Source of the DNA: Alteromonas sp. RKMC-009
Lineage (GTDB): Bacteria; Pseudomonadota; Gammaproteobacteria; Enterobacterales; Alteromonadaceae
Direction of reading: 5' to 3'
DNA: 64,000 nucleotides
Assembly: GCF_003584565.2 (NCBI RefSeq)
Contig: NZ_CP031010.1
Coordinates: 558,001 to 622,000 of the forward strand
Every line of letters starts with the position of its first letter. Position 1 is the stretch's first letter. The notes beneath the pieces are model-generated. The model saw only the letters and a list, made by a program, of their open reading frames with translations. It was not told the DNA's origin and made no database searches. Shown one piece after another: positions 44,187 through 64,000 of the stretch. The position numbers were made by a program, and so were the translations under genes.

Positions 44187-44208
44187 AGCTAACTAAAGAG
44201 GAAGCATT

Positions 44209-45195: not shown

Positions 45196-45236
45196 TCAGG
45201 TTTTTATCAAACTGATTTGTAGAGAAGGATAAAACT

Positions 45237-46227: not shown

Positions 46228-47514
46228 ATGCAATTTTTAGTCAGCTTAAAAAATAGTGAATCATGGCAGCAAATAATTAACCGTTGCCAGCTCGCATCGC
46301 TGAAGAAGTTCGATGACATTAACGAACTTCATACAGAGTCAACGGATAGCAAAGCCTACTGCATCTATTCCGCGTTGACCTTAGCCGACATCAGCCAACT
46401 CTTAGCAAACAAAGAAATTCAGTTAGTGCTTAGCCTCGATTCACCAGAAATTTTAGTTTCGAACTTACTGCGCGAAGGCAAATCTCTTAGCCACTCTGTT
46501 TCCATCTGGAATCAGCAAACGGTGGAAATCTTAAAATTGCAGCAGCAACATCGGCGACAGCTTCATCTTGCGCAAGCCGATGGCCTACTAATCTGCCCTG
46601 CCCAAATACCTGAATGGCTTGCAAGTAAGTTTTCTGCAATTGGCGAGGCACCTTCACGCCTTAGTCATGACTTCTACTCCCTCATGGCTTCGCAAGCGCT
46701 AAGACAAAATCATGAAACAGAAACCACTTGGCAACGACTTATCGCCTGCAGCCTGCCATTACTTGATGACCCCTATCTCAGCTTTGACCTTGACGCAATT
46801 TACCAAGTGGCCATAGTTCAAAAAGAGGAGCAGCTGGCAGATAGCAAAGGCGAAAACGAACTCCTTTTGCATCAACTTTTCCACGTTCAAGAAGAGCTAG
46901 AAAAGGCTTTTAGTGCAGAGAAACAACAACAAATCAAGTTAGAAAAGACCTCACAATTAAACAAAAACACTGAGCAACAACTGGCTGTAAGCAAGGACGA
47001 AAACGAAGTTTTACTGCAGCAGCTGTTCTCTGTACAGGAAGAACTGGACTACAAGCTAAAAAAAGCAGCAGCCGAAGTTGTAAAATCAAAACACCAACTG
47101 GCCGCCGTTCAGGCAGAGTTAAAGGCAATATCTGCTTCAAAATTGTGGAAAAGCGTTGCTCCAGTGCGCAAACTGACAAAAGTCCTCAGCGCAAAGAGAC
47201 GAAACAGAGAGCAACTCAGGCAAGACGCCGCCCTTATTCTGGCGTCAGAATACTTTGACGTTAGCTGGTATCTACAAAACTACCAAGATGTAGCAGAGTC
47301 AGGTATGCCCCCTGCCGAACATTATTTATGTTTCGGCGGAGCCGAGGGTCGCGCACCAGGTCCTTTGTTCGACAGCAACTGGTATTTATCCAGATACCCA
47401 GATGTCGCTAAAAATGGCATTAACCCTTTATTACACTACGTAAAATTTGGAGTGCAAGAAGGCCGAACCCCATCTCCTAAACTTCAACAGCATCAGAAAG
47501 GGACGAATTTATGA
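46228..47514 (+). CDS. Coiled-coil protein with two C-terminal YPDV-type repeats
   Basis: A 428-residue protein with no catalytic domain that I recognise. The N-terminal 200 residues form an unfamiliar alpha/beta domain. The middle (about 205-300) is a Glu/Gln-rich coiled coil in which the phrase ENE-LL-QLF-VQEEL occurs twice (GENELLLHQLFHVQEELE and DENEVLLQQLFSVQEELD). The C-terminus has two 38-residue aromatic repeats (Phe343 and Phe381 onward; second one FDSNWYLSRYPDVAKNGINP, ending HYVKFGVQEGRTPSP). The repeat also occurs in the genes at 58257 and 61324. It overlaps the next gene by 4 bases (ATGA), so they are co-translated. Probable role in a surface-glycan complex, by context only. Confidence 0.72.
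   Translation: MQFLVSLKNSESWQQIINRCQLASLKKFDDINELHTESTDSKAYCIYSALTLADISQLLANKEIQLVLSLDSPEILVSNLLREGKSLSHSVSIWNQQTVEILKLQQQHRRQLHLAQADGLLICPAQIPEWLASKFSAIGEAPSRLSHDFYSLMASQALRQNHETETTWQRLIACSLPLLDDPYLSFDLDAIYQVAIVQKEEQLADSKGENELLLHQLFHVQEELEKAFSAEKQQQIKLEKTSQLNKNTEQQLAVSKDENEVLLQQLFSVQEELDYKLKKAAAEVVKSKHQLAAVQAELKAISASKLWKSVAPVRKLTKVLSAKRRNREQLRQDAALILASEYFDVSWYLQNYQDVAESGMPPAEHYLCFGGAEGRAPGPLFDSNWYLSRYPDVAKNGINPLLHYVKFGVQEGRTPSPKLQQHQKGTNL
47254..47481 (+). repeat. Two 114-bp protein-coding YPDV repeats
   Basis: Two successive 38-codon units start at Phe codons 47254 and 47368. They share FDxxWYLxxYxDVAxxGxxP, then HYxxFGxxEGRxPxP. DNA identity between units is low, so the repetition is old and maintained at protein level. 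Confidence 0.8.
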
Positions 47515-48683
47515 CACTTAGTACATACGCAGGCTCAGACACGCTCGTTTGGCTAGGTGTCGGTTACAACGCTGACCTAAGCTGCATTGCCGATGAGACA
47601 CAGGTTGTACTGGTTGATGCTAACCCAAGTGCTTTAAAAACATTAGAAAAACAAAGCGTTGCAAAAAGTGGGATCAAAGAGAATCTAACATTCGCGCCGG
47701 TGTGCCTTGCGCCTCGGGCAGGCGAAACCGAATTTTATCATTATAATCTCAGTGAATATTCAGCGTTGTCAGAATTGACCGGCCTTCGCAAGCTGTTTCC
47801 AGGCATAAAACTTAAAACCACACAAACCCTAACTACAACCCCTATTGCTGAATTTATCCGTAACCAGACATTAAATAATAAAAACAACACATTACGAATA
47901 GACATCATCGATCAATGCTTACCGTTATTGCGTGCCCTGGCACAAGACGGATTACTAAGCATATTTAACCACTTAGAACTGCAAACTAGTACTGAGTCCA
48001 TGTACCAAAACGCAGCCACTACTTCTGACATAGTTCAATTCCTCAGCCAACAAGGCTACGAGTTACGAACCCAAGACAACAGCGACCCAGATTTACCAAA
48101 GCTGGGTTTTACTGTAAACCCTCTTTGGCAGACTCTACAAGGCACCCAGCAACAGCTTTTAGAAGAAAAGAAGAAGGCTGAGCAAAAAGAAGCTGAGCAG
48201 GCGAAGGCATTGGCCGAGAAAGATTCTAAGATTGCAGAAGCTAACAAGATCGCATCTGAAGCGGCCAAACAGTTGGAAATCATAAAAGCTGAGCAAGCGA
48301 AGGCATTGGCCGAAAAAGACTTTAAGATTGCCGAAGCAAACAAAGCAGCATCGGAAGCCGCCAAACAGCTGAATGTCATCAAGACTGAAAAAGCTGACCA
48401 AGCTAAAGTACTGGCTGAGAAAGAAACAAAACTGATCGAAATTGATAAGCAACGAGTTGAACAAAAAGCCGCCAAAGAAAAACAAACGGACGCCTTAAAA
48501 GAGGTAAAAACTCAGTGCAAAGTCCTGCAAACACAAAACCGTGAACTCCAGATCCAAGAAAAAGAAAATCGTGTACAGCTCGAACAACTTAAAGCTGAAC
48601 TACTAAAAGCCGAAGCCCAAATCACCCTAATTCGTGATTTATTCTTCAAAAATAGCACATTTCAACGCCCAGAAGGACAGTGA
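47511..48683 (+). CDS. FkbM-like methyltransferase-fold domain fused to a long coiled coil
   Basis: A 390-residue protein. The first 200 residues look like a degenerate FkbM-type Rossmann domain: VWLGVGYNADL at the glycine-loop position, VVLVDANPSALKTLEK (acidic end of strand 2), LRIDIIDQCLPLLRAL at strand 4, and FLSQQGYELRTQDNSDPD. The canonical G-x-G-x-G loop is not intact, so activity is doubtful. From about residue 215 to the end is an Ala/Lys/Glu-rich coiled coil containing three imperfect copies of AEQAKALAEKDxKIAEANK. The C-terminal EAQITLIRDLFFKN resembles endings of other coiled-coil glycan proteins. Overlaps the upstream gene by ATGA and is 1 base from the next. Confidence 0.68.
   Translation: MTLSTYAGSDTLVWLGVGYNADLSCIADETQVVLVDANPSALKTLEKQSVAKSGIKENLTFAPVCLAPRAGETEFYHYNLSEYSALSELTGLRKLFPGIKLKTTQTLTTTPIAEFIRNQTLNNKNNTLRIDIIDQCLPLLRALAQDGLLSIFNHLELQTSTESMYQNAATTSDIVQFLSQQGYELRTQDNSDPDLPKLGFTVNPLWQTLQGTQQQLLEEKKKAEQKEAEQAKALAEKDSKIAEANKIASEAAKQLEIIKAEQAKALAEKDFKIAEANKAASEAAKQLNVIKTEKADQAKVLAEKETKLIEIDKQRVEQKAAKEKQTDALKEVKTQCKVLQTQNRELQIQEKENRVQLEQLKAELLKAEAQITLIRDLFFKNSTFQRPEGQ
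48192..48452 (+). repeat. 96-bp tandem repeat encoding coiled-coil heptads
   Basis: Unit 1 48192-48287, unit 2 48288-48383, then a 9-base insertion and a decayed third unit from 48393. Units 1 and 2 are clearly similar at DNA level, which suggests recent duplication within the coiled coil. Confidence 0.8.
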
Positions 48684-48684
48684 A

Positions 48685-49746
48685 ATGAGTGATATAAAAA
48701 AGCAGCGTTACCACTCGAGATTAGATGCCTTTCATCCAATGATAGAACTTTATAATCTATGGCAATTTGGTTACTGGACAAGACTCGCACAAATTCAAAC
48801 GATACAGAATGAAGAACAACTCGCGCTTAAAGCCAGTGCTCAGCTTCAACTTGGACAAATAGAACAGGTAAAACAAACACTTAAGGATATACCAGAACGC
48901 CCTAGTGAACAAACTGCCAAATTATTGATCTCAGGCGTGTTCAACACACTAGGCAAAGCCCATGCAATACTTGAAGATAAAGAAAACTCTGAAAAAAACT
49001 TTAAGTTAGCTATAGAGAGCTACATAGGTAAGACTCGCAGCAAACACATTATTCAAGCTCGTAAAAACGAACAGCTAGCTCAATTGAATAAATGTACTCG
49101 TTGGATCAGCTTAGACAGTTATGATCAACGAGGTCAAATAAAAAAATTATTCATTGATTGTGGAGGGCATGATGGTTGCTCAACCATCAAATTCAAACTA
49201 TCCAACCCAGGCTACGAGATAATAACCTTTGAAGGCAATCCCGAGCTTTGGCCTTACTACGAAAATTTACCTACCCAGCTGATTAAAAAGTTGGTAAGTA
49301 ATTATACGGGAGAGATTGAATTCATTATTGATCCAGTTGATGCTGACGGCAGCTCAATAGTTAAAGAAAAAAACATCGATTTCCATAAAGAAGTAAAGAA
49401 TGAAGATTGTCCGGTTATTGTTATGCCGTGCATTGATTTATCAGAGTTTATTCGCGAGAAAGCGAAATACTATCAAGAGATAGTACTCAAACTCGATGTA
49501 GAAGGCGCTGAATACGCCATACTCGAAAAAATGCATCAAGATGACACTCTCAAGTATATTACAAAGCTATACGCAGAGTTTCATTGGTATAAAATTGACA
49601 TGCCTAAAGAGCAACACGATGCTCTTATCGAAAAACTCAATCCCTTTTTTGAAATAGAAGAGTGGGATGCCGCTGAGTTTTCCGTGCACAAAAAGGGCAT
49701 CAGTAACAAAAAGATCAGACAACAAATATTAAAAGCAATAAATTAA
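48685..49746 (+). CDS. FkbM family methyltransferase with TPR-like N-terminus
   Basis: A 353-residue protein. Residues 1-135 are helical with a TPR-like pattern (SAQLQLGQIEQVKQTL, FNTLGKAHAILEDKENSEKNFKLAIES). The FkbM SAM-dependent methyltransferase domain follows (about 150-330): KLFIDCGGHDGCSTIKF (SAM loop), EIITFEGNPELW, SSIVKEKN, and ILKLDVEGAEYAILEKM (here VLKLDVEGAEYAIL), the family hallmark. FkbM enzymes O-methylate sugars or lipids. ATG 48685 follows the previous stop at 1 base with AAGGA upstream; a longer frame from 48634 overlaps the upstream gene. Confidence 0.85.
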   Translation: MSDIKKQRYHSRLDAFHPMIELYNLWQFGYWTRLAQIQTIQNEEQLALKASAQLQLGQIEQVKQTLKDIPERPSEQTAKLLISGVFNTLGKAHAILEDKENSEKNFKLAIESYIGKTRSKHIIQARKNEQLAQLNKCTRWISLDSYDQRGQIKKLFIDCGGHDGCSTIKFKLSNPGYEIITFEGNPELWPYYENLPTQLIKKLVSNYTGEIEFIIDPVDADGSSIVKEKNIDFHKEVKNEDCPVIVMPCIDLSEFIREKAKYYQEIVLKLDVEGAEYAILEKMHQDDTLKYITKLYAEFHWYKIDMPKEQHDALIEKLNPFFEIEEWDAAEFSVHKKGISNKKIRQQILKAIN

Positions 49747-49757
49747 AAGAGTAGCAC

Positions 49758-52700
49758 ATGGACTTTTCAAACCTTTTAAGGCAAGCCAATAACGCTTTTA
49801 GAGAACAAGACTATAAAACTGCTTTAGAGCTCTACCAGCAATACGCTCAACAAAGCTCTGAACATCAGCAGCGTATAAATGTAAACTTAAAGCTCGCTGA
49901 AGCACGTTTAAATAGAAAAAGAAAAGACGCGGAACAAAACGCAAAATCTGCACTTACCACTAAAGACAAAATAATTGTTTACACTGTAAACATCGGTGGT
50001 TACGAGAGTGTAAAAGAACCAATGGTCATCGACCCAACAGTAGAGTATATACTGTTCACCGACAATAAAGAGCTCGTATCAAAACATTGGAAAATTATAC
50101 AGCTAAACGACAAGCTCGATGACCCGCGCCGTACCTCGCGTCTTCCCAAAATATTGGCCCACAAATACTTGCCAGAACATGACATAAGCGTCTACATCGA
50201 CTCAAGTCTCGAAATCAAAACCCCAGACGTTCGTAAAATGATATCCGAGTGTATGGAAGGGGATGATATTGCCTTATACAAGCATTACAAGAGAAAATGT
50301 GTTTATGATGAAATAGAATTTGTCATGAATTCAACAGACCGTGTTGTTGCAAATAAAGAATTGTGCTTGTCGGCATTAAAAAAATATGAAGATATTGACT
50401 ATCCAAGAGATAACGGCTTATTTGAAAATGCATTTATTTTTAGGCGCAATACTGATAAAAATAAAAAACTAAATAAGCGTTGGTGGAATGAGTACATAGT
50501 AGGTACTGAACGTGATCAGTTTACCTTTATGTATGCGCTTGAAGTAGAAGGTGTAAGGCCTAATCCGATTAAAATTGGCAAGCAGTTCCGCATTAACCCA
50601 TACGTAAATTTTCATAAACACGTTTATAGATCGCATAGCAAACCAAAACAGCCACATGTTTTTATTGCTTATGCTCCAAAGTCATATGGCATGAACCTAG
50701 GTCGTTGTTATAACGAATATATGGAACGATTAGATGAAGATGAGTACGCACTTTTCATCGACCATGATGCTATGTTCACAAATAATAGCTGGCGCGATGT
50801 TGTTGTTAGTGCTTTTTCAGAACACGCTGGAGAAACAGCTCTTTTTATCAGTCGAACAAATAGAATTAATAATCCTTATCAACGATTAAATTTACTAGAG
50901 AATAATCATAACTTATTAGATCATGACGTTTTTGCTACTAATTTATCTAAAAGATACGGCAAGTCAGTTGTAGAGTGCGCTAAGTTACCTTCATCTTCCG
51001 GGGTAATAATTATGCTTAGCAAAAAAACTTGGCTGAAACACAAGTTCACAGATGGCTTTTTAAAAGTCGACAACAATATTCACTTATCTCATCGAAATGC
51101 TGGTGACCCTGTATATATTATGCAGGGCTTGCACGTATATCATTTTTATAGAGCTGATAATGATCTTTCGCATGCTGTTAAAGATATTTCAAGCTTACCA
51201 AAAGACTCAACCTCGAAAATTGGTCATGTAGTCAGGAATTTTGTTACAAGTGATCTTAGTGCTGAATCTTTATCAAAGTACATGAAACTCCTAAAAGATG
51301 ATGAATACGGTATATTCTTGCCCGAACAAGCAATGTTCTGTAACAAAGATTGGTACACGAGGGTTTGCGATTTTTTAGAAAAAGAGCACTCTGTGGGATT
51401 AATGGTATTCAATAATAACTTTATGGATGAGAAAGCTCCTTTAGAGTTTGATGTGGTAAAACACAAGCAATATGCAGCATCGCTATTAGGTTCTAACTCA
51501 GATTGCGCATTAGCTTATGAAGAAGAACTAGTGCAAGGGGGATTGAGCGCATTTTTGCTGTCCAAGAAGGCATGGAAAGAATTGGAGGTACAAGCGCATG
51601 TTGACTTTAAGTCGTTAGCCACAGCTGTATCTAAAGCTAAGCAGAAAGCACGATTTGTTAAAAGCGTTTATGTGCTTGATAAAAATAAAGATCATAGAGA
51701 TAGAGCTGTTTCGCGATACTTAAATAATCAACTTAATATAGCAGTTTTAACCTACGGGTTTTGGCCTCAGCAAGCTGGTATGGAGATGATGGTGAATAAC
51801 CTGTCATCGCAACTGACAAAAGCAGGGAATAACGTTGTCTTGTTCGCACCCAAGCCTAAGAAAGATTACAAAGAGCTTAAGTCTAATTATATTATCAGAC
51901 GTTTTAAATCTACTGACGATATGAAGCGTATTTTTAGAGAACACCATGCCAGCATGCCATTTGAGGCTCTTTATGTACAAGGAGCCTATGAGCCAGCATC
52001 TTTAGCGCTTGAGCTCAAAAGAGAATTAGATGTGCCGGTAGTGTTGCGGACTCATGGTGAAGATATCCAAATTGACAAGGAGTCTAACTACGGTTACAGG
52101 CTAGATCCTAAAAAAAATGAAGTTATCTTACGCAATCTCCGTCAAGTTGATCATAATGTCGTTATTGGTCCGCACATATATGACGAAGTACGCCCGTTAA
52201 CTGATGGCCCGATTAGTTTGATATATAATGGCGTTGATACAGAACATTTTACTCCTGGCAGGGAGTATCTGATACATGATAAATTCAATCTTCCGAAAGC
52301 AACAAAAATTCTTATAACTGTTGGGCGAAATGTAAAAAAGAAGAGTCTGCATTTAGCTATTGACGCTTTAGCTCTAATTCGAGAAGAAAGACAGGATGTC
52401 GTCCTCGTTCATGCTGGTAAAGAGGGGAACGGTTTAAACTTAGTCGAATATGCAAGGAAAAAGGGTGTCGAAGATTGCTTCTTCCAGTTAGGTGAAATCA
52501 GTTATTTTGATATGCCATCTATATATAGAAGTAGCGATATATTTGTATTTCCAGCTAAAACTGAAACATTTGGAAATGTTACTGTTGAAGCGATGGCTTG
52601 TGGTTTGCCTTGCGTTGAGTTTGATTATGAAGTTAATAGAAGTAAAATTGTACATGGTAAAACTGGCTATATTTTAGATTACGGTAATATTCATGAGATG

Positions 52701-53561: not shown

Positions 53562-53564
53562 TTT

Positions 53565-54278
53565 ATGTGTGCTTCTACGGAAAATGTTAATATACCTGAG
53601 GGATTTTCTTGTGAAGGGGAATCAAACTTCTTTGATATTGGTGATGCTATAAATCTTACCGGTTCAGTGACGGGGAACAATAACAAGATTGTCATAAGGA
53701 ACACCGCTAATAGTAAACCGAGAAATATCCAATTAATTATGAATGGTGATGGGAATGAAATTTCTGTTCAAAAGCTTGGGCGAGTTAAAGGTCTGATTAT
53801 TAGAGTCGGTTCAAATCTTCCTGCAAATAATACATTTCTTGAAATTTCTCCTGGTTTTACTAATGAAGGCGGCAACAGGTTTTTGCTTTTCAATAGTGGG
53901 AACGTGCTAAAAATAGGAAGGGACTGCCTATTTTCAAAGAACATAACAATAAGATGTGGAGACCAACCTCATTTGCTCTTCGATCGTTCGACTGGTGACT
54001 ATCTTGATATATCTGAAGGGGTTTTTATCGGTAATCGAGTTTGGGTTGGTGAAGAAGTATATATTACAAAGAGAGCCACAGTTCCTTCTAATTGTCTTAT
54101 AGGAGCTCACTCTGTAGTTACGAAAAGATTTGAAAACGAGTACTGTGCGATTGCAGGTAATCCATCTAAAGTTGTTAGAGAAAATGTTGAATGGATTCGC
54201 AATGTAAGTGTTCTCGAAGATAATTCAGATTATAAGAAGTCATTCTATAAATACTATGATGGCTTTAAGGCTGATTAA
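53565..54278 (+). CDS. Left-handed beta-helix acyltransferase
   Basis: A 237-residue acyltransferase of the hexapeptide (LbH) class, of the kind that O-acetylates sugars with acetyl-CoA. Imperfect hexapeptide turns run through residues 40-200 (GNNNKIVI, GDGNEISV, LKIGRDCLFSKNITIRCGD, ISEGVFIGNRVWVGEEVYI, IGAHSVVTKRFENEYCAIAGNPSKVV); the last resembles the conserved end of WbbJ/maltose-acetyltransferase-like enzymes. The usual catalytic His is not obvious: GD-Q-PH-L is the best candidate region. It begins 3 bases after the giant transferase gene and ends the rightward operon that started at 46228. Confidence 0.85.
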   Translation: MCASTENVNIPEGFSCEGESNFFDIGDAINLTGSVTGNNNKIVIRNTANSKPRNIQLIMNGDGNEISVQKLGRVKGLIIRVGSNLPANNTFLEISPGFTNEGGNRFLLFNSGNVLKIGRDCLFSKNITIRCGDQPHLLFDRSTGDYLDISEGVFIGNRVWVGEEVYITKRATVPSNCLIGAHSVVTKRFENEYCAIAGNPSKVVRENVEWIRNVSVLEDNSDYKKSFYKYYDGFKAD

Positions 54279-54320
54279 TCATGAATTATTTAGTTACCTC
54301 CGTAGCTGGTGGGTAAACCT

Positions 54321-54350
54321 CCCCTAATTATTGTTATAATTAATTAGGGG
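54321..54350. terminator. Hairpin between convergent glycan genes
   Basis: CCCCTAATTA-10-TAATTAGGGG, a perfect 10-bp inverted repeat 42 bases after the acyltransferase stop and 11 bases from the convergent gene. No T-run on either side, but position suggests a shared transcript end. Confidence 0.6.
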
Positions 54351-54360
54351 TAGTTCACTA

Positions 54361-55686
54361 TTACTTTTTCACTTTATACTCTTTTCGAAAGGACTCTATC
54401 CTATCTTTAGGAAAAAATTGTGTAAGTTGGTTATTAAACCTTTCTCGGAATCTTTTATCATCCACTCGGTTAGAGCCTCCAGTGTCCTTTCTATAGTCAA
54501 CCTCAATTAAAGTACTGTTTGGCTCGTAAACAAAGCGATTATCTAACTTAGCTAACAGAGTTATTTCATTGTCCGCTTTGTGCGCTTTGTAGTAGGGATT
54601 CAAAATAGCATTTTCATAAAACTTTCTAACCCAAGTCTTACGAACCATCCCAAAAGAAGCAATACGACCAAACCACTTTCCATCGTTAAATGCTAGTAAA
54701 CCAGCACCTTCACTTTCAATTCTTTCTAGAGCTATCTTAAGCCAACCTCTACCAGGGAAAGCATCTTGGGCAACAAAAACGATAAAGCGGGAGTCACATT
54801 TAGCTGCGACGGAATTGAGTGTACTCATGAATCCTCCTCCCACATCATCCATTGCGATGATAACCGTCCCCCATGTACCAGCGCGCGAAGCTAATATTGC
54901 AGCTGTTTTGTAGCCCAATTCTTCATCAATACATGGCATAACTATTGATACTGAAGGCGATACACGAAGATCTGTACTATCTAGCTCGCTCATGTTTAAG
55001 CTAATAACGTCTTCAAATAAAAAGTCTACAGAATCTTTGCACACGTCCGGAGGAATAACACTGGAAGAAAAATATAGGACTTTTCTAGTTTTAAAGTCAA
55101 ATAAATTACCTAAGCTATTAAATAACGTGGTAATCGAAAATTTTAAATTATTAGGCTTAGTACTCACGATTATGCTTAGTTCACTAGCTGATATTTTGGG
55201 AAGGTAACTAGAAGATATTTCACCGATTCCATTTTCTACAAAGTAAATCTGCTGACATGTCAAATTCTCGCTATAAACTAATAAGCGTTTTTTGTATTCA
55301 AGTAATTTAGAGAGAATTTTTTGTGAGGATTTTGAACGCGCGTCTTTTTTACCTGAATTAATTTGAACTAATGTCCAAGATTTTTTGCTGGACTCTTCTC
55401 TATGAATAAGATCTAAAATAACATTTTCTATATTTTTATCCGTCAAATCACAAACTATCACCGTATCAAATTTGGCAAATTTTTCTTCATCACTATTATT
55501 TGAAAACTTTGTGTAGTTTACGGATATCCCGATTTTAGCATGCAACTCTCTTAAAGCTAATGCAGTATTAAATTTTAGTAACTCTTTTAGATCAGGGTTT
55601 TCTTTAATTGCTAGGTTATAAAAGTTTAAAGCCTCTTTATAATTTTCTTTAAGAAATTCATCATTACCTTTTTCAAGAAAAGTCAT
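54361..55686 (-). CDS. TPR-like plus GT-A-type glycosyltransferase
   Basis: A 441-residue protein. The N-terminal GNDEFLKENYKEALNFYNLAI is a TPR-like unit, similar to the start of the giant gene at 49758 (NNAFREQDYKTALELYQQYA). A diverged central domain (about 60-235) is followed by a GT2/GT-A-like domain (about 240-400: SPSVSIVMPCIDEELGYKTAA, VIIAMDDVGGGF, SRFIVFVAQDAFPGRGW, FGMVRKTWVRKFY, AHKADNEITLLAKL), with the acidic QD/ADNE positions typical of nucleotide-sugar enzymes. ATG 55686 is chosen for the AGGA 6 bases ahead; TTG 55704 lacks one. Target sugar unknown. Very AT-rich. Confidence 0.75.
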   Translation of the reverse strand: MTFLEKGNDEFLKENYKEALNFYNLAIKENPDLKELLKFNTALALRELHAKIGISVNYTKFSNNSDEEKFAKFDTVIVCDLTDKNIENVILDLIHREESSKKSWTLVQINSGKKDARSKSSQKILSKLLEYKKRLLVYSENLTCQQIYFVENGIGEISSSYLPKISASELSIIVSTKPNNLKFSITTLFNSLGNLFDFKTRKVLYFSSSVIPPDVCKDSVDFLFEDVISLNMSELDSTDLRVSPSVSIVMPCIDEELGYKTAAILASRAGTWGTVIIAMDDVGGGFMSTLNSVAAKCDSRFIVFVAQDAFPGRGWLKIALERIESEGAGLLAFNDGKWFGRIASFGMVRKTWVRKFYENAILNPYYKAHKADNEITLLAKLDNRFVYEPNSTLIEVDYRKDTGGSNRVDDKRFRERFNNQLTQFFPKDRIESFRKEYKVKK

Positions 55687-56104
55687 TTGATATCCTGAAT
55701 ACAATTGTAAATTTACTTTTCTAGAGCAGTTTGCTTTAGATTATTCAAAAAATAATAGTGGATAGAATTAATCGCACAATATAGGCAGCCTAGGGAAATA
55801 AAAAGTAGCATGCTCACTTAAGTACTACCCTTCGGTCTTCTTCGATACCAAACTTCAGAAATTGTAAATATGGGCTAATGACTTGTAATTGAACATCTAT
55901 GTTTTGCTCAAGATAAGAAACCCCATCAAAAAAGAGACTAGCCTGTCTACTTTCTTTCCAACCAAACTTTAAGCAGTAACAAGCAGGGTCGACTTTACTT
56001 TACGGCGTAAGCACTAATTCAACTGATACTAAAAGCCGGCCCCCTATCACCCCATTGTTTTAAATTATTCAGGCCAGGTGAAGTTTGTTGTTCTACGCAT
56101 AAAT
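55687..56104. other. 418-base gap containing a decayed repeat gene
   Basis: Between two leftward genes. No intact gene fits; the minus strand carries a decayed YPDV-repeat fragment (listed separately at 55814-55999). The rest is AT-rich with frequent stops in all frames and should include the promoter for the gene ending at 54361. No IS ends were seen. Confidence 0.6.
55814..55999 (-). pseudogene. Relic of a YPDV-repeat protein
   Basis: The minus strand reads 61 codons without a start: SKVDPACYCLKFGWKESRQ, then FFDGVSYLEQNIDVQLQVIS, then FLKFGIEEDRR and a TGA at 55814-55816. These align with the repeat of neighbouring genes: the end of one unit (VDP--Y-LKFGWKE-R) and nearly all of the next (FDxxxYLxxNxDV ... 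FLKFGxEExR). An in-frame TAA at 56000-56002 closes it upstream. It has no ATG and is too short for a gene of this class, so it is read as the remains of a deleted or disrupted gene. Confidence 0.65.
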
Positions 56105-57019
56105 TTATTTGTACCCAAACAGTTCTACAGATTTATCCTTATAGTCGTGCCACAACTTGATACTTGGCATATTACCTATGGAATCTGTTTTTTCCGTCCA
56201 CGGTTTAAATGCTCCAGCGTAATGCAACACGGAGATTTTCTCCAATAGTTCCCTATAAACTTTATCTGACGCCAATCTCAGGAAACTGTCCTGAAAGTTA
56301 AACGTACTGGAAACCATGCCGATATATTTGCGCTTGTCTCCGAAATACTCACTAAGAAGACCTTGCTCATGAATGGAAATGCGCTCAGAGGCATATTGCG
56401 TAATCGTATTAAAAAAGGCATCACAAAGAAAATCGCCGCTTACCAGCATCATACCTGAATTGATTCTCTTAATGTGTTTGCCGTCGAACTGGCCGTCATA
56501 CATTTTTAGTAATTGTGAGTCAGTATCGCCTTCCCGTAAGGATTGTTGAAACTGTGGGCTGGTTACCAGGGGCTTATTGGGAAATGCGTCAAAAAGAGCC
56601 TGCATTGGATTGTGGACAATCATGTCTACATCGAGGAACAGTAACTTACTAGTTTCTTGTTTTTCAAATACTGACCATTTTAAAAACGTACCTCTGTTCC
56701 AGTCCGCTCGCTCTGGCCTTTTTACATTTTCTTTCGCAAGGGAATATAGGGTCTCTTTTCGTTTTCCGTCTAGTAACGAAACTTTATCTGCTACCAGTTG
56801 AACAAAGCTATCTGAAAGCAGTTTCTTATCATCGGTATAGATAACAATTGGGTTATCAGTGAGCACACCGTTATAGGCCATACTTCCTAGCATAACTTTG
56901 AAACAATCTAAGTAGCCACTGTCAAATGCAAACGCTAGGGTTACATCGTTATATACTGTGGCCTTATGTTTACCCGAATTGGAAATTAAACCTTCGCGAT
57001 ACAAGCTGTTTATAGCCAT
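56105..57019 (-). CDS. Glycosyltransferase family 8-like protein
   Basis: A 304-residue retaining glycosyltransferase of the GT8 type (LgtC/glycogenin group). VTLAFAFDSGYLDCFKVMLGSM opens the nucleotide-binding fold; the metal-binding D-x-D is in LLFLDVDMIVHNPMQALFD; RINSGMMLVSGDF and the C-terminal VLHYAGAFKPW (H-x2-G-x2-KPW) are the family signatures. Start ATG 57019 with AAGGAA upstream. It is 9 bases downstream of the alginate-lyase-like gene, and both form a leftward operon. The sugar and acceptor are unknown. Confidence 0.88.
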   Translation of the reverse strand: MAINSLYREGLISNSGKHKATVYNDVTLAFAFDSGYLDCFKVMLGSMAYNGVLTDNPIVIYTDDKKLLSDSFVQLVADKVSLLDGKRKETLYSLAKENVKRPERADWNRGTFLKWSVFEKQETSKLLFLDVDMIVHNPMQALFDAFPNKPLVTSPQFQQSLREGDTDSQLLKMYDGQFDGKHIKRINSGMMLVSGDFLCDAFFNTITQYASERISIHEQGLLSEYFGDKRKYIGMVSSTFNFQDSFLRLASDKVYRELLEKISVLHYAGAFKPWTEKTDSIGNMPSIKLWHDYKDKSVELFGYK

Positions 57020-57028
57020 GGAGTTCCT

Positions 57029-58171
57029 TTAATTACTTCTGTTTGATGCTGTACATGTCAAATGCGTTAATGCATCCCAAGACATGAAATGTTCGCTAAA
57101 TCTGCCGGGGTACCAGTCGTTGTAAGCCTTAATGTAACTAAAGTCGCGTTTATCTAGATGTTGACGACTAAAGTAGTGGTTGTAAGCGATCTGGTATCCT
57201 GCGCTCTTAAGGTGGCTATTCTTATATCGCCCCCTTTTGAGCCCTTTGGGGGATGGTACCTCACCATTAAACATTTTTGCAAAGTGCTCAAGTACCTTGA
57301 GTAACCGCGGCTCTTTGTTTTCAAAAGAAAGTGCGTATAGGTTAGTGCCGTTGTGCCAGGCTATCTCAGCGGTTTGCATCCATGAGATAAGCGTATACTG
57401 GGGATGCCATGTATCGCGAAGATAATCAGCCTTCAGGCTACCTGATGCGGTACTGACGTCGGCAAGGTTACGTTTATACAATTTAACAGCCTCCGCGAAT
57501 CTATCATTATCTTCTAAATAGACTGCCAGAGCTATTTCACTTAACACTGATGTGGCTCCCCAGTTATTTTCTCTATAAGCTTTTGATGCATAGCTTCCAA
57601 GCGTTTTAGCAAACTTATTAAATTGCAATTGATTGGCTGGTTTCCAATTGGCTGCGCCGTTATTGTAATTTTTAATAATGTCTGCTGCACCCAGCCATAT
57701 GGGGAGCGCCCAAGCCGCCTCAAGGTAAGCCTGATCGTCTTTTCCTTTTGTCACTTCTAAATCCCGGAAAGTATATGCCCACTCCGTTAAAATAGTTTTG
57801 GCTTTATCAAGGTACCGTGTGTCTGAAGTCGCTACCCACATAAGTGCGAGTGCTCTGGCCGCATGAGCATCTCCGCGAAACGCTGCTTCATACTTATTCC
57901 CTGTGTAAGCTTCTACATATACAATTTCATAGGCATGGTGCTGACGAGTTAGGGTGGCGTATTCGCTTGTGGTTAACTGCTCGAATGCGGGTTGTCTTTC
58001 ATCACACTGTTGCTCTTTAAGGTTTGTTAACTGTAGCTGACTGGCACCGATACTCGGGTGAGTAAAGGTCTGGGCCGTGCATAGCGAGGACAGAAAAACT
58101 AAAACACCCAATAAAAATAAGCGAGACAAACAAGCTGGGGAGCGCGTATGTAGAAATTGTGGTTTAACCAT
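57029..58171 (-). CDS. Secreted alginate-lyase-family protein
   Basis: A 380-residue protein with an N-terminal signal peptide (LFLLGVLVFLSSLCTAQ) and an all-helical Alginate_lyase (PL5-like, alpha/alpha toroid) domain: FRGDAHAARALALMWVATSD, AYLEAAWALPIWLGAADII, the conserved NNWGATSVLSEIALAVYL and the C-terminal SAGYQIAYNHYFS. Periplasmic or extracellular location is expected. Lyases of this kind trim uronic-acid polymers and occur inside exopolysaccharide loci as well as in degradation loci; the context here points to the former. Start ATG 58171 behind GGAG. First gene of the operon with the GT8 gene; divergent from the gene at 58257. Confidence 0.82.
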   Translation of the reverse strand: MVKPQFLHTRSPACLSRLFLLGVLVFLSSLCTAQTFTHPSIGASQLQLTNLKEQQCDERQPAFEQLTTSEYATLTRQHHAYEIVYVEAYTGNKYEAAFRGDAHAARALALMWVATSDTRYLDKAKTILTEWAYTFRDLEVTKGKDDQAYLEAAWALPIWLGAADIIKNYNNGAANWKPANQLQFNKFAKTLGSYASKAYRENNWGATSVLSEIALAVYLEDNDRFAEAVKLYKRNLADVSTASGSLKADYLRDTWHPQYTLISWMQTAEIAWHNGTNLYALSFENKEPRLLKVLEHFAKMFNGEVPSPKGLKRGRYKNSHLKSAGYQIAYNHYFSRQHLDKRDFSYIKAYNDWYPGRFSEHFMSWDALTHLTCTASNRSN

Positions 58172-58256
58172 GTATATCTCCTAAGTTCTGGTGAGTGTCC
58201 ACGGTAACTGATAATATTCCCAGCAAGATTCGATAAAGTACTGGTTAATAGGTGTA

Positions 58257-60299
58257 ATGGCGGTAAAGCAACTAACACTGCAGATTAAAGAATATATTCA
58301 AAGCAAAGCAGCTATGCGCTCCCTTCTCAAATTGATGAGAGATAGTGGAAAATTTGATAGAGAATACTATCTTTCGACGTATCCGGATGTCATGCAGGAT
58401 CCCACCTGGGCGCGAAAGCCTGAATTGCACTACTTGAAATATGGAGCAAGCGAACTGCGTAATCCTGCGCCATGGTTTGAAACCCAGTTTTACCTGCAAC
58501 AAAACCCCGATGTTCAGGAACATAATATTAATCCATTTGTTCATTATATATTACATGGTGCTATGGAAGGGCGAAAGCCCAATCCAAAACAACAAAAAAG
58601 ATATTTGGACAACTCAGTAGATAAAATTAGGTATAGCATTGTAAACCATCTCTGGGGCGGTTATTCAAAGCCGGCTTTGAGAGATCTGGAGGCTATCTAC
58701 ACCAATGAGCAAAAAGATAATGATCTTCGCTATTTTGCTGCATGGCAGGCGGCGCGGTGGTATTACTTTGTCGACGACTATAAAACGTCACTCTCTTTGG
58801 GAGAGTTAATCGATTCATTGGGGGAAGAATATCGTCTCGGCAAAGTGGCTGTAATGAATAAAGCTTATTGTCTGATGCATTTGGGACAAACAGAAGCTGC
58901 ACGGAAGACATTGCAGGAATTCTTGGATAAAAAGCCGGATGATGCCGATATGCTATTGTCTATATCCAATGTGCAGACAACGGAAGAAGAGCGTCTTACT
59001 AAAATTAATGCGGCATTTTCCAGTCATGGATATGCCTCTATTGAGCGGATAGATCCGAGCAAGCCACTTTCGTTTGCGAATATCCAGGCATCAGCGCCGA
59101 AAATTGAGTCGGAAAAGAAAGTAAGTGTCATTATACCCACGTACATGACGGAAGATAGGTTGGGGATTGCCATTCAGTCACTGCTAAATCAGAGTTGGCA
59201 AAATCTTGAAATCATCGTTGTTGATGATTGTAGCCCCGATGGCACGTATGCAGTCGCACAAAAATTCGCCGAGCAAGATAGCAGAGTGATTCCTGTCAGA
59301 CAGGAAAAAAACGGTGGTGCTTATCGGGCACGCAATACTGGCCTTAAGCTAGCAACTGGAGATTTTATTACCACGCATGATGGTGATGACTGGTCGCATC
59401 CTCAGAAAATCGCGGCTCAAATGGATTTCCTTGAAAGAAATCCCAATGTGAAGGGGGTGTGTACTCACTGGACGCGTGCCTTAGATAATCTTCACTTTAG
59501 TCATAACTGGCGCCTCAATCCTCGATTAATCCACTGGAGTCACTCATCATTTTTATTCCGCAGGGAAATTGTAGATGACGTGGGTTTCTGGGATTCTGTT
59601 GTTGTAGGAGGGGATACTGAGTTCATCTGGCGAATACAGGCAAAATACCGTAGATGGTCAGTAAAAAACATAATCAGCGCTGTACCAATGGCGTTTGCTT
59701 TGGATGATGATGGATCTTTGACTCGCACGAAGTCCACCCATGTGAAAACGATTCATAATGGTCTGCGCCACATCTATCGGAGTGGTTGTGAATGGTGGCA
59801 TAAAAACACCAGTGACTACTATGTTGATGATTCGGAAAAAAGACCGTTTAATACTGCCCAGACAATGGTTACTAGAGGTGATACTGACTTAGATTGTGAC
59901 GTTCTGTTTATCGCTGATTTTTCCGAATCAAAAGACAATGATGTGATTTATGAGAAGATTAAACAAGCTCTCAGCAATAGGAGGAAGGTCGGAATATACC
60001 ATTGGCCGGTTTACGGAGAATTCAGAGAGAACTTTGATGCTCGGTACTTCAATTTGCTAATGTCCGATTTAACACACCCTGTAGTTTACGGAATGAATGT
60101 TAAAGCAAACCAGGTTATTGCTTCTTCCCCTCAGCTTTTCGAAGAAGAATTGGAAAATGTTGCCTCGATAACAACGAGCGAATTCACACTCCTTTCTGAA
60201 AGCCACACGGGAGTGGAACGTGAGGCATTGGAAAGTCGTATTGAGTCAATTTTCTCAGTGAAACCTGAAGTAGAATTGGTTGAGCAGCACAATGTCTAA
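58257..60299 (+). CDS. YPDV-repeat / GT2 glycosyltransferase
   Basis: A 680-residue protein. Two YPDV-type repeats are at the N-terminus (Phe33: FDREYYLSTYPDVMQDP; Phe74: FETQFYLQQNPDVQEHNINP, ending HGAMEGRKPNP). A TPR-like helical region (about 120-250: FAAWQAARWYYFVDDYKTSL, GQTEAARKTLQEFLDKKPDDADML) follows. The GT2 domain (about 283-520) has VSVIIPTYMTEDRLGIAIQS, IIVVDDCSPDGT, the D-x-D-type HDGDDWSHPQK and GGDTEFIWRIQ. The last 150 residues are not recognised. The GT2 part is a clear paralogue of the one in the gene at 61324. The frame's only good start is ATG 58257; it overlaps the next gene by 8 bases. Confidence 0.85.
   Translation: MAVKQLTLQIKEYIQSKAAMRSLLKLMRDSGKFDREYYLSTYPDVMQDPTWARKPELHYLKYGASELRNPAPWFETQFYLQQNPDVQEHNINPFVHYILHGAMEGRKPNPKQQKRYLDNSVDKIRYSIVNHLWGGYSKPALRDLEAIYTNEQKDNDLRYFAAWQAARWYYFVDDYKTSLSLGELIDSLGEEYRLGKVAVMNKAYCLMHLGQTEAARKTLQEFLDKKPDDADMLLSISNVQTTEEERLTKINAAFSSHGYASIERIDPSKPLSFANIQASAPKIESEKKVSVIIPTYMTEDRLGIAIQSLLNQSWQNLEIIVVDDCSPDGTYAVAQKFAEQDSRVIPVRQEKNGGAYRARNTGLKLATGDFITTHDGDDWSHPQKIAAQMDFLERNPNVKGVCTHWTRALDNLHFSHNWRLNPRLIHWSHSSFLFRREIVDDVGFWDSVVVGGDTEFIWRIQAKYRRWSVKNIISAVPMAFALDDDGSLTRTKSTHVKTIHNGLRHIYRSGCEWWHKNTSDYYVDDSEKRPFNTAQTMVTRGDTDLDCDVLFIADFSESKDNDVIYEKIKQALSNRRKVGIYHWPVYGEFRENFDARYFNLLMSDLTHPVVYGMNVKANQVIASSPQLFEEELENVASITTSEFTLLSESHTGVEREALESRIESIFSVKPEVELVEQHNV
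58353..58589 (+). repeat. Two YPDV repeats at the start of the GT2 gene
   Basis: Units begin at Phe codons 58353 (41 codons) and 58476 (38 codons). They share FxxxxYLxxxPDV, then HYxxxGxxExRxPxP, with the repeats of the genes at 46228 and 61324. Confidence 0.78.
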
Positions 60300-61137
60300 C
60301 AGTAATCGAAAAATTTTTGTAGTGATACGCTATTCCATTCTGTCAAAAACGAAAGCATGGAAAATTTCAGATACAAAGGATAGGGAAAAATATAAGCAAA
60401 TCTTGTTCTCTGAAGCACGTATGGATACTAAGTTTCTGTTTTTCAAGGAACTTGTTCTGCCATCGTTGGCACAGAACGAGTCTCGTGTTAAAAACGCTGA
60501 AGTGGTAGTGCTGCTTTATACTTCCACGCAACTTCCTGATAAACAACGGAATAAGTTGAAGGAATTGTGTTCACCTTACAATTTCATGAATATCAGATAC
60601 ATTACCGAAGATGATAACTTTCATGAATGTGTGAGAAGGGATTTGCATGCTAGCTTATCGCAAGCAACGGGTAATAGTGTGTATGCTACTGTCAGGTTGG
60701 ACGATGATGATGCACTTGGTAAAGATTTTCTGCTGAACGTTGAGAAGTATGTTTCTAATGAATTCTCGGAGCGAATTATTACATTTCCTTGCGGATTCGA
60801 GAGCTTATACGAGCCACGTGAGAAGACAATTTTAAAAACCATTGAAATTGACTACCCAAAGGTCGCAGTCGGTCTGACTAAGATCCATAAATTCGATAAC
60901 GAAAAAACTGGTGCCTCAGCAACATTCAGCATTTATGACGCTGGAAACCATACTAAGGTCGATAAGTCGCATGTGGTCGTGCAGGAAAGGGGGACTCGGC
61001 CGTACTATCTGAAGTTGGCCTATGCCGAACAGGATACGGCTGAAAAAGGGTTTGTAAGGCGGAGTGAAAATGCGCCTATAGTTGAATACGAAAGGCTTGT
61101 GGCGGAATTCCCAGTTATTTCAGGCTTGCTCAGTTAA
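60292..61137 (+). CDS. Putative rhamnosyltransferase-like protein
   Basis: A 281-residue protein resembling the Rhamno_transf family: IFVVIRYSILSKTKAWKI near the start, then LFFKELVLPSLAQNESR, a central YATVRLDDDDALGKDFL with an acidic motif suitable for a nucleotide-sugar/metal site, and TRPYYLKLAYAEQ. The family is named for rhamnosyl transfer but few members are tested. ATG 60292 overlaps the upstream stop by 8 bases, so the two transferases are translationally coupled. Not membrane-spanning. Confidence 0.75.
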   Translation: MSNSNRKIFVVIRYSILSKTKAWKISDTKDREKYKQILFSEARMDTKFLFFKELVLPSLAQNESRVKNAEVVVLLYTSTQLPDKQRNKLKELCSPYNFMNIRYITEDDNFHECVRRDLHASLSQATGNSVYATVRLDDDDALGKDFLLNVEKYVSNEFSERIITFPCGFESLYEPREKTILKTIEIDYPKVAVGLTKIHKFDNEKTGASATFSIYDAGNHTKVDKSHVVVQERGTRPYYLKLAYAEQDTAEKGFVRRSENAPIVEYERLVAEFPVISGLLS

Positions 61138-61323
61138 TGTCTGTCTAAACTGAAAAAACATCGTGTATCTTTACAGTTTGAATAAGTAGATATTCAAGAT
61201 GTGACTTGAATTGCAATTCACTGCTTCATGGGCCGTTTACAATAGCAATCGCAGAACAATGACCGCTGATATACCTTAATAGAAACATAAAAGTTAGAAA
61301 AGGGGAGGGAGAGTTTCCCGAAT

Positions 61324-63969
61324 TTAATAAGGAGCCGATACTTGCCCAAGCGCAGTGAGATACTGTTTTGATATTGCTTCTTGTCCATAGCGTGTTACTG
61401 CGATATCCCGAACCATCCGTTGTATCTTTGCCAGCCCCGCTTTGTTTTTTTGTAGAGTAATGATTCGGTCTGCAACATATTGATAATCACCAAATGGAGC
61501 AAGATAACCTGCTGATAGATCAATGATTTCTTCCAGCGCTCCCCAGTTATAGGCAATGGGTACGCAGCTACAAGCCATACCTTCTACGACTGTTCTGCCG
61601 AATGATTCCTGAAAGTGCGATAGATTCAGTATCACATCCATATTCTGATAAGCATCAACAGGATTAGTAGCATAACCACAGTACGCTACATTTTTCTGGG
61701 AGTAACTTTCGAGCCGAGCGGTGAGGGCTTCAGTTTCCGGCCCATACAGAAAAAAAGTGATGTCTTGGTGCTTTTTAGCAACGAATTCAGCAATTTTAAA
61801 AAAGTCGTCGATACCTTTTTTAATGGTGTTACTGCTTAGCATAATAACGTTCAAGGTAGAGGTGGCAGACTTATCCTGCGTTCTTCGAAATTGCCTGGTA
61901 TCTATTGCGTTGTAAACAATAGTTGTTTTTTCTTTCAGGTTAACAAACGATGCAGTGACACCGGAATTGGCGATAACGAGGTCAGCGCATTCGTCAATAT
62001 GTTGTCTGATTTGCTCTGGCGTTGCATTTAGTCGGCTACACAAATCCGTATCGTGATTAGGCAGTTCCCTCACATGCATCAATGACTTCACTCCAGATTG
62101 TCTGGCTGCTAAATGAGGTTCCCAGAGTGTGAGCGTATTTACATAAACCACGGATGTTTTACTGGCAGTAATGATTGAGCTAATTTGACCCGTAACTTCT
62201 ACGATTTCCCTTCTACCCCTTCGCCACCATGGGAGTGGAGTAAAATAGATTTTGCTGACAGAGTCAGCTATCTCTCTGATATACCTATGGTTAATGCCGC
62301 TGGGTAATATAACTGTTATATCAGCATTCTGCTGATATAACATTTTTATGCAATCAAGAAAGCTTCGTTCGGCACCAAACAATTCGTTACCAGCCAGGTG
62401 AGCAACCATAAGTACTTTTTTACCGCTTTGTTTTTTAGCATCGCCAGTTACAGAAAACAATTTAGTCTTATCGACAGGCTCTGATGCCCACAATGAAATA
62501 GCTTCGAAGTTTGATTTTCCTTTAATGTACGCGAGACCACTTACACTCAGGTAGGGATTAGGATCGCGACCTTCGTCGATGCCGTGATTAATGAAGTGAG
62601 TTAGAGGATCAACACTAGCTGCGGCGATGTCAGGGTAGGCGTCTATATACCAGTCAGGGTCGAATAAGTCTTTAGTCTTTAGCGCTTTTTTAAGATTGGC
62701 TTTTCGTATTTCCAAGGAGCCTCGGCAAATCAATGGAGGTGCAACGAACTTGCGTACGGCACGCTGCGGCATATAGAGTCTTCTTGCACGGTTATGCCAT
62801 TCTATAGCCGCATCATTATAATCCTTTCTAATTCCTGAGTACTGAGTACGCAGGTGTGTGGCGCTGGTTTGAGTCAGTGACCCCTTGTCAACTCGACCGA
62901 AGGCAAGGGGAACTCCGGGCATAACTTCACTGATCGCAGCCGGGCCGTACTTTTTCTGGATCCGCAGCCAATATTCAGTGTCTGCATTAACCGAGACATT
63001 ATCCCAATAGCCAAGTTTTCTGAAAACTGAGCGACGAAACATAAGGCTGGATACATTTCTGTAAATCCAGCCTTGTTCCATTCGCCATGTTTCAAAATGC
63101 AGTGACGGATCGGTTCTTGCCCAGTAGGATACGGCGGCTTTTACCTTTCGGTAGCAGCGTATTGCTTCAACCTGCTTTTCAATTTTTTGTGGGTGGGACC
63201 AGTCGTCGGCATCATGAACGGTAATAAGTTGGCCCTTCGACAATTTAAGACCTGCATTTCTGGCAGCATAGGCTCCTCCGTTTTCAGGCAGTGGAATAAA
63301 TTTGATCCTTGAATCCTGTTTAACGAACTTTTCGATAACGGCTTTACTGTTATCTGTAGATGCATCGTCTACAACGATTATTTCGATCTTTGAGTAGGTC
63401 TGACTTAATAGGCTATTTAACGCCGTCGCCAACGTATTCTCTGCGTTGTAGCAGGGAATGAGTACTGATACTAAAGGGCTGAAATAGTTTAGCGTAATTG
63501 CAGATTGCTCGGAGTTAGCCGTTAATGAATCCAATGTTGCAGACTGGTTTACGGTAAGTGGAATTAAGTTGTGGCGCTTAAATAGATGATTGATGACTGC
63601 CAGCTTCTCTGCACCTTTTTTCAACATAGATGCGGCCAGAAGTTTATTATCGGATGGTAACCAGCCTTTATGCTCTAGAACTCGCCTGGCATTCTCGATA
63701 TCTCCACAATGAAAGTAGGCACTAAATGCAAGCAAATATGGGCCGTCATGGCGGATAAACAATTTTAAGTTTTCGTCTAAAAGCAGATCCTCTGCATATT
63801 CTTTTGTTGCCCCCCAGTTGCCCCAGCTAGCATGCCATCTGCAAATAAACCAGGTAGCTAGACTCTGCTCAAAGTTGTTATGGTTACTTGCTATCTTATT
63901 TAAGCGCTGAAGAACCTCTTCAGGCTCGGAAACGGCCCACAATCGGTTGTCCAGCTTAACCGTTTCCAT
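61324..63969 (-). CDS. GT2 / YPDI-repeat / GT4 bifunctional glycosyltransferase, possibly longer at the N-terminus
   Basis: An 881-residue protein from ATG 63969. Modules: helical TPR-like start (about 15-130); GT2 domain (about 165-400: VSVLIPCYNAENTLATALNS, IIVVDDASTDNS, HDADDWSHPQK, NADTEYWLRIQ); one YPDV-type repeat (Phe436: FDPDWYIDAYPDIAAASVDP, ending HGIDEGRDPNP); and GT4 (about 520-875: KVLMVAHLAGNELFGAERSF, VVYVNTLTLWEPHLAA, IVYNAIDTRQFRR, and the E-x7-E region ESFGRTVVEGMACSCVP). The frame stays open upstream of 63969 to the right window edge, so the real start may lie outside. It could transfer two different sugars. Leftward, convergent with the gene ending at 61137. Confidence 0.82.
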   Translation of the reverse strand: METVKLDNRLWAVSEPEEVLQRLNKIASNHNNFEQSLATWFICRWHASWGNWGATKEYAEDLLLDENLKLFIRHDGPYLLAFSAYFHCGDIENARRVLEHKGWLPSDNKLLAASMLKKGAEKLAVINHLFKRHNLIPLTVNQSATLDSLTANSEQSAITLNYFSPLVSVLIPCYNAENTLATALNSLLSQTYSKIEIIVVDDASTDNSKAVIEKFVKQDSRIKFIPLPENGGAYAARNAGLKLSKGQLITVHDADDWSHPQKIEKQVEAIRCYRKVKAAVSYWARTDPSLHFETWRMEQGWIYRNVSSLMFRRSVFRKLGYWDNVSVNADTEYWLRIQKKYGPAAISEVMPGVPLAFGRVDKGSLTQTSATHLRTQYSGIRKDYNDAAIEWHNRARRLYMPQRAVRKFVAPPLICRGSLEIRKANLKKALKTKDLFDPDWYIDAYPDIAAASVDPLTHFINHGIDEGRDPNPYLSVSGLAYIKGKSNFEAISLWASEPVDKTKLFSVTGDAKKQSGKKVLMVAHLAGNELFGAERSFLDCIKMLYQQNADITVILPSGINHRYIREIADSVSKIYFTPLPWWRRGRREIVEVTGQISSIITASKTSVVYVNTLTLWEPHLAARQSGVKSLMHVRELPNHDTDLCSRLNATPEQIRQHIDECADLVIANSGVTASFVNLKEKTTIVYNAIDTRQFRRTQDKSATSTLNVIMLSSNTIKKGIDDFFKIAEFVAKKHQDITFFLYGPETEALTARLESYSQKNVAYCGYATNPVDAYQNMDVILNLSHFQESFGRTVVEGMACSCVPIAYNWGALEEIIDLSAGYLAPFGDYQYVADRIITLQKNKAGLAKIQRMVRDIAVTRYGQEAISKQYLTALGQVSAPY
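62551..62664 (-). repeat. Single YPDV-type repeat inside the GT2/GT4 gene
   Basis: One 38-codon unit, FDPDWYIDAYPDIAAASVDP followed by HFINHGIDEGRDPNP, placed exactly between the GT2 and GT4 domains. Same module as in the genes at 46228 and 58257 and in the relic at 55814. Confidence 0.78.
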
Positions 63970-64000
63970 TGCGCAAGGCCAGCGCCCCTCTTTCCAACCA

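Follow-up and report, generated by a model that had tools for sequence, protein, structure and literature searches.

A repeat of about 38 residues on glycosyltransferases, secreted enzymes and phage endolysins: a candidate envelope-glycan-binding module

The window, a stretch of 64,000 nucleotides from Alteromonas sp. RKMC-009 (contig NZ_CP031010.1, positions 558,001 to 622,000), carries, in three genes of a glycan island, a protein repeat, here called the unit, which belongs to a large family of homologous members absent from the searched libraries. Units are about 38 residues long and come in dyads or longer arrays; in exported and phage proteins they occupy the place usually taken by wall- or polymer-binding modules. 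The family is read here as one of envelope-glycan-binding repeats, with a probability of about 0.55: we infer the binding of sugar polymers from the kinds of proteins that carry the unit.

A profile search of the window recovered five full copies of the 38-residue unit, distributed over three genes, and a relic: the repeat is therefore real. The corresponding features are the following.

46228..47514 (+): 428-residue protein; N-terminal region, then a long coiled coil (by reading) and, at the C-terminus, two units
47242..47367 (+): unit 1 (FDVSWYLQNYQDV...EGRAPGP), in the 46228 gene
47356..47487 (+): unit 2 (FDSNWYLSRYPDV...EGRTPSP), in the 46228 gene; modelled together with unit 1 by AlphaFold
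55817..55999 (-): relic, downstream of the GT8 gene 56105-57019(-) and in its frame; a pair of degenerate units enclosed by stops
58257..60299 (+): 680-residue glycosyltransferase; N-terminal dyad, then TPR-like region, then GT2
58341..58475 (+): unit 3, with a 3-residue insert, in the 58257 gene
58464..58592 (+): unit 4, in the 58257 gene
61324..64000 (-): in-window part of the 61324 gene, in the order unit, helical region, GT2, unit, GT4; the start lies outside the window
62542..62676 (-): unit 5, between GT2 and GT4 of the 61324 gene
63970..64000 (-): end of unit 6 (GWKEGRWPCA); the rest reaches about 64080, past the window edge

The arrangement given in the preliminary description, C-terminal after a coiled coil in the 46228 gene, N-terminal in the 58257 gene and between GT2 and GT4 in the 61324 gene, is borne out. 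The start assigned there to the 61324(-) gene, at 63969, is wrong: the frame is open at the window edge, GWKEGRWPCA is encoded ahead of that ATG, and the complete gene, coding for 930 residues, has units at the N-terminus and between GT2 and GT4. The count of five copies accordingly holds for the window, while the complete genes hold a sixth, so that two units are present in each of the three genes. The relic, too, exists, not as the single copy first described but as two degenerate units. When the five-unit profile was run against the whole genome (5.0 Mb, E-value <= 10), only seven places were matched, all within the island; two of them, the relic (E = 3.7e-10 in the window search, 1.6e-5 in the whole-genome search) and unit 6 (genome position 621976-622080(-), E = 2.2e-14), lie outside the training set. 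The relic dyad falls in or beside the lowest-G+C kilobase of the island (0.31 at 55000-56000 vs 0.47 for the window). In the alignment of the five full units, 10 columns are invariant and identity to unit 1 is 36-48%, which indicates that the copies are old and rules out a recent duplication inside the island.

Outside the window, the unit was found in 51 of the 398 genomes of the phylum (Pseudomonadota, own genome included; E <= 1e-4). A scan of 84,980 species, made with a consensus query biased to typical units, confirmed at least 147 loci: among the 80 listed, Proteobacteria, Acidobacteria, a cyanobacterium, Desulfobacterales, Chloroflexi, Bacteroidota, Kiritimatiellae, Spirochaetes and Actinobacteria are represented. 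Matching plasmid records are 120, and annotations among the 60 listed include glycosyltransferase, GH99-like, methyltransferase, M10 metallopeptidase, Hint, hemolysin-type and hypothetical proteins, with others. The viral scan, whose search pattern presupposes part of the motif, returned at least 120 stretches; an open reading frame (ORF) with a unit at E <= 1e-3 is present in 65 of the 120 loci listed, and 34 ORFs score at E <= 1e-8. In named phages, one endolysin dyad found no match by tblastn; two other queries matched one unannotated record, identical for both.

Overall, 654 units were counted in 153 host ORFs, the window's own genes and some duplicates included, with 1 to 22 units per host. 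In the 107 complete hosts, the array is N-terminal in 45, C-terminal in 38, in the middle in 19 and spans the whole length in 5. Six units are the most frequent number in C-terminal arrays (19 of 44 hosts, cut ones counted), and 14 of the 15 arrays of five or more units finish within 25 residues from the protein end, a figure that partly reflects the class definition. Arrays in the 65 hosts of the phylum sample are N-terminal in 39, in the middle in 5, C-terminal in 12 (one truncated at the region end) and whole-length in 9; these hosts derive from 52 hand-picked regions (L129-L180) of 34 of the 51 positive genomes, some sharing a genome, and are not independent. In Microvirga arabica, five ORFs with C-terminal unit arrays lie within 9.3 kb (L106:1074-10348); ahead of the units of one of them there is a match to a parallel beta-helix repeat and a weak one to AlgG. 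Two proteins of 176 and 197 residues (L137:8598-9125(-) and L165:8957-9547(+)), from genomes of about 2.0-2.5 Mb, consist of one dyad and a Lys/Thr/Pro-rich tail.

The transferase-type hosts of the window have their counterpart in the phylum sample. Home-made profiles detect a GT2, GT4, RgpF or WsaF-like domain in 39 of the 44 N-terminal or middle hosts. Pfam, run on 43 of these 44 (one protein longer than 1900 residues was dropped), matches 28 families; the 25 listed are of glycan type apart from one methyltransferase, one epimerase set and one subtilase. Transferase-type domains are found by the home-made profiles in 3 out of 20 C-terminal or whole-length hosts, where Pfam matches are sparse (GT2 in 2, GT4-type in 1, RTX in 1). 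The glycosyltransferase link proposed in the preliminary description is thus widely valid, as the N-terminal and middle hosts show, but many matches fall outside glycan-synthesis loci. Host neighbours are rarely transferases, 15 out of 93 at distance one and 4 out of 77 at distance two, as counted by home-made profiles and a greedy ORF caller; the unit is therefore no general marker of glycan islands.

Other hosts include secreted enzymes, wall hydrolases and phage proteins. Pfam was run on two sets of 57 and 44 hosts, which together cover 101 of the 107 complete ones (five small, doubtful or duplicate proteins and a very long one were dropped). Among the families displayed (25 of 42 for the larger set, 25 of 32 for the smaller), RTX repeats occur in 7, the M10 C-terminal domain in 3 and CAP in 2 of the 57 hosts, and two S8 subtilases are found in the 44. 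On IMG/VR contigs, five Amidase_2 proteins carry 2 or 4 units at their end (in one case a SPOR match follows), and one Amidase_3 and one GH25 protein have units at or near the C-terminus; an NlpC/P60 match on a viral host stays under cut-off. Repeats at the C-terminus of phage wall hydrolases, with more than one type of catalytic domain, are what defines the wall-binding repeats of endolysins as a functional class. Two tape-measure proteins (L247, L223) and a number of unnamed phage proteins bear units, too. With one endolysin's four units as the query, and lengths restricted to 0.55-1.75 of its own, 910 proteins were retrieved. Hosts among the best 120 of these, counted by eye, are glucosaminidase (27), CAP (18), GH25 (14), transglutaminase (14), Amidase_3 (7), Amidase_2 (4), YkuD (4) and deacetylase (4) proteins, among others, with no Pfam domain in 17; these are referred to as Lachnospiraceae-type hosts. 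A simple hydropathy test detects an N-terminal hydrophobic segment in 98 of these 120 proteins. The same test is positive for 1 of 13 C-terminal hosts that bear at least five units and, among N-terminal-type hosts, for 1 of 40 and 0 of 39: the unit resides in exported and in cytosolic-looking proteins alike.

Sequences from such distant hosts are homologous. A profile built mostly on Gram-negative loci finds 120 out of 120 of the best 120 of the 910 proteins, with E-values from 1.7e-10 (weakest) to 4.4e-46 (strongest), and profile-profile comparison, dyad on dyad, gives a probability of 98.3 (E = 1.4e-14); the same unit is therefore present in Lachnospiraceae-type and transferase-type hosts. 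Six positions, Tyr8, Asp14, His25, Gly30, Glu33 and Arg35, are kept in each of the three groups compared: N-terminal-array, six-unit C-terminal and Lachnospiraceae-type. The unit is rich in Trp, Tyr and Phe; a conserved aromatic residue is typical of many sugar binders. Two-unit arrays, 47 in number with the window genes and some duplicates counted in, have Trp directly ahead of the invariant Tyr in 37 first but only 8 second units. This skew marks the dyad as asymmetric and, judging from sequence, the dyad rather than the single unit looks like the working form, although single-unit hosts exist.

Domain libraries do not contain the unit. No Pfam-A or NCBIfam model scores above cut-off across the units of the window proteins and of the other hosts that were read individually, which rules out a TPR or another catalogued repeat, and no repeat family of such kind appears among the families shown in the host Pfam tallies. 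Among PHROG families, the best match to the window units has E = 0.048. On phage hosts, the best stretches of phrog_1794, 5182, 1512 and 16823 (endolysin and tape-measure profiles) extend into the units, so such families may contain them; none of the PHROG families listed consists of the unit alone. A literature search, for which sequence motifs are poor terms, found no publication whose listing describes the repeat.

AlphaFold models the window dyad with a predicted local distance difference test score (pLDDT) of 96.5 and a predicted template modelling score (pTM) of 0.85, from 137 aligned sequences, and the four-unit array of another host (L018) with 96.7 and 0.88: the modelled unit is made of three short helices and an extended link. 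The unit has no sequence relative in the PDB, and Foldseek found no solved fold there (best E 9.7 for two units, 3.5 for four). A viral structure library yielded 24 matches at E <= 10, of which two reach E <= 0.001. The top five, by fold only, are giant-virus proteins with probability 1.00 each and a TM-score of only 0.43-0.52, named as uncharacterized, FkbM methyltransferase, DUF5672, dTDP-sugar reductase and glycosyltransferase.

Action on or at envelope polymers is the most plausible common property of transferases, wall hydrolases, RTX enzymes and endolysins, hence the preference for glycan binding. The common job of the unit would be to hold its protein on a cell-envelope glycan. In the island, the two glycosyltransferases and the coiled-coil protein would use their dyads to grip the glycan, lipid- or protein-linked, as it grows; this would keep the transferases processive and gather them on one chain, and the coiled-coil protein would act as a spacer or in setting chain length. 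On RTX proteins, wall hydrolases and endolysins, the unit would anchor the enzyme to polymer that is already finished. A wider version is possible, though it has to be taken as doubtful: a single fold might read envelope glycans on both membrane sides, as a nascent-chain clamp in transferases, as a finished-polymer grip in secreted enzymes, wall hydrolases and lysins, and also in giant-virus glycan enzymes, with unit number and sequence coding for the chain type.

Several points weigh against glycan binding. Sequence and fold searches found no relative with a solved structure or a known ligand. The six residues conserved across groups may serve structure only. The tape-measure proteins and unnamed phage proteins bearing units are not known glycan binders; tape-measure proteins and sugar-nucleotide enzymes fit poorly with glycan binding and with docking alike. 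The giant-virus matches, as predicted folds, include a sugar-nucleotide reductase, and one phylum-sample host has an epimerase: neither would need a polymer binder. An organism is named for 10 of the best 120 of the 910 proteins, and all are Lachnospiraceae. Finally, the co-occurrence of hosts within the genus, described below, is also predicted by docking.

The preliminary description had left the choice between a docking scaffold and a glycan-binding module, and had named matches scattered outside glycan loci as the result that would speak against a scaffold. Such matches were found in part, as RTX, M10, S8, wall-hydrolase and endolysin hosts, and their distribution is not random; confinement of the unit to glycan loci is ruled out by the RTX, M10, S8 and wall-hydrolase hosts. 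Since these hosts lie outside glycan-synthesis loci, the glycan-binding option is favoured and the transferase scaffold is not. A scaffold would be expected in glycan loci only, with two or more partners, while other host kinds and one-host genomes are observed.

Docking, in which units bind units, the C-terminal dyad of one protein to the N-terminal dyad of another, thereby assembling the transferases, ranks second, and is nevertheless unlikely. It draws on the genus, where units occur in 36 of 59 genomes: a short frame (up to 628 residues) with two adjacent units is present in 22 of the 59, and a larger unit-bearing host (640 residues or more) accompanies it in 22 out of 22 (Fisher p 6e-8, uncorrected for kinship and linkage, with rows sorted by hand and size limits chosen after seeing them). 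A larger frame without the short dyad ORF is found in 12 genomes; two others, at variance with docking, contain a lone 593-594-residue frame with one unit and no larger host. Hosts with C-terminal and with N-terminal units adjoin in L176, L066, L101 and L115, and a relative of the 61324 protein, with N-terminal and middle units (38-58% identity; units starting at residues 4-55 and 474-526), is present in 8 of 12 genus regions, fetched from 11 genomes and selected for holding several hosts. For O-antigens, complexes of several proteins that join polymerase and terminator and contain coiled coils are established (PMC11231755). Conversely, 13 single-match genomes out of the 51 positive were rechecked, and in all 13 the matches at E <= 1e-3 stay within one ORF; only two of them show a further match (E 0.025-0.044). 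Phage endolysins and exported wall enzymes bear units without a transferase domain. A polymer-binding module accounts for all four host kinds, docking only for the transferases and the co-occurrence in the genus; glycan binding is therefore preferred.

Two further explanations are improbable. Short aromatic amphipathic helices might recruit enzymes to the membrane surface, where lipid-linked substrates reside: transferase-type hosts are, in the hydropathy test, almost devoid of signal-peptide-like or membrane segments, yet probably act at the membrane, and Trp, Tyr and Phe are common in the unit, but exported wall hydrolases and RTX proteins never meet the cytosolic lipid carrier, and the modelled array is a compact helical repeat rather than a set of free amphipathic helices. 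A rigid, ligand-free helical spacer setting the distance between domains would suit the confident model of the four-unit array and the variable unit number, but arrays are mostly terminal rather than inter-domain in the 107 complete hosts, some small proteins barely exceed a dyad, and the conservation of residues across phyla is left unexplained.

If glycan binding is correct, many stretches so far unannotated in glycosyltransferases, RTX enzymes, wall hydrolases of gut bacteria and endolysins gain one testable function. A way to study what keeps soluble transferases on the same chain, and a new kind of endolysin targeting module, would come with it. The unit profile is a model missing from annotation libraries; even if the ligand were a protein, domain libraries lack this family, with its dyad form and its occurrence across phyla and viruses.

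The island itself corresponds to 11 main ORFs in 46228-63969, directly preceded, at 43566-45635, by genes which we take to be rpsD, rpoA and rplQ. In addition to the hosts described, whose 46228 protein has no Pfam family above cut-off in its N-terminal region, Pfam detects GT4, GT8, an FkbM methyltransferase, an alginate-lyase-family protein and a Rhamno_transf protein, and, under cut-off, a weak GT2-like gene and a hexapeptide protein slightly below threshold. At 47511-49746(+) two genes overlap: the first has a sub-cut-off FkbM match and a long coiled coil, the second is a clear FkbM methyltransferase, a combination that recalls, by analogy, chain-terminator rulers. The alginate-lyase-family protein, at 57029-58171(-), adjoins the GT8 gene inside the synthesis island.

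No match to PF01943, PF04932 or PF01061 falls inside the island, further flippase and polymerase families not having been tried: PF01943 and PF04932 are matched about 200 kb or more away, and the nearest PF01061 lies about 32 kb beyond the last unit. Wzt_C (PF14524) has no match in the genome, in a search whose control was positive in 2 of 14 named genomes. The placement or absence of these families rules out a complete Wzx/Wzy or Wzm/Wzt locus here, and since none of the exporter, flippase or polymerase families tried is inside the island, its product could also be a protein-linked glycan.

In the 12 genus regions, a C-terminal-dyad protein matching 46228 is found by BLAST in 11, in some cases over the coiled-coil end and the dyad only, and the dyad gene adjoins a 132-residue ORF, rplQ-sized and matched by size only, in 4 (L327, L329, L334, L335). 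These four repeat the placement seen in the window, so that both the site of the island and its set of genes recur; from gene order, the rplQ side appears to be a recurrent site for variable glycan islands. The claim that the repeat links the genes of glycan islands is accordingly valid in the genus, where unit-bearing genes recur together, and does not extend to a general rule.

Among known systems, the units resemble the CW_7/Cpl-7 wall-binding repeats, which (PMC5705596) are likewise short, serial, C-terminal on phage endolysins and widespread on wall hydrolases; unlike these, the units have no Pfam model above cut-off or PDB fold, and are found also on cytosolic-looking transferases. The carbohydrate-binding domain of Wzt (PMC9445017) is similarly a glycan-binding module, joined there to a cytosolic protein which deals with new O-antigen, but the unit is a 38-residue helical repeat, and Wzt_C is unmatched in the genome. 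WbdD-type coiled-coil terminators and multi-domain polymerases (PMC11231755) offer a parallel in the pairing of a coiled-coil protein with a two-transferase protein, as in 46228 and 61324; 46228, however, has no recognised terminator domain, and the genome differs from such systems in the lack of Wzt_C and of PF01943, PF04932 and PF01061 inside the island. O-antigen machinery (PMC11231755, PMC9445017) may be taken as an analogy for the island mechanism. With RTX and other type-I-secreted proteins (PMC3034196) there is one host class in common, where RTX repeats go with C-terminal unit arrays, but the unit differs from the Gly/Asp nonapeptide and RTX proteins are a minority of the hosts. TPR and other helical hairpin repeats are, like the unit, short helical repeats in arrays, and a TPR-like region follows the units in 58257; in that protein, Pfam TPR matches lie at residues 188-236, past the units, and none over them.

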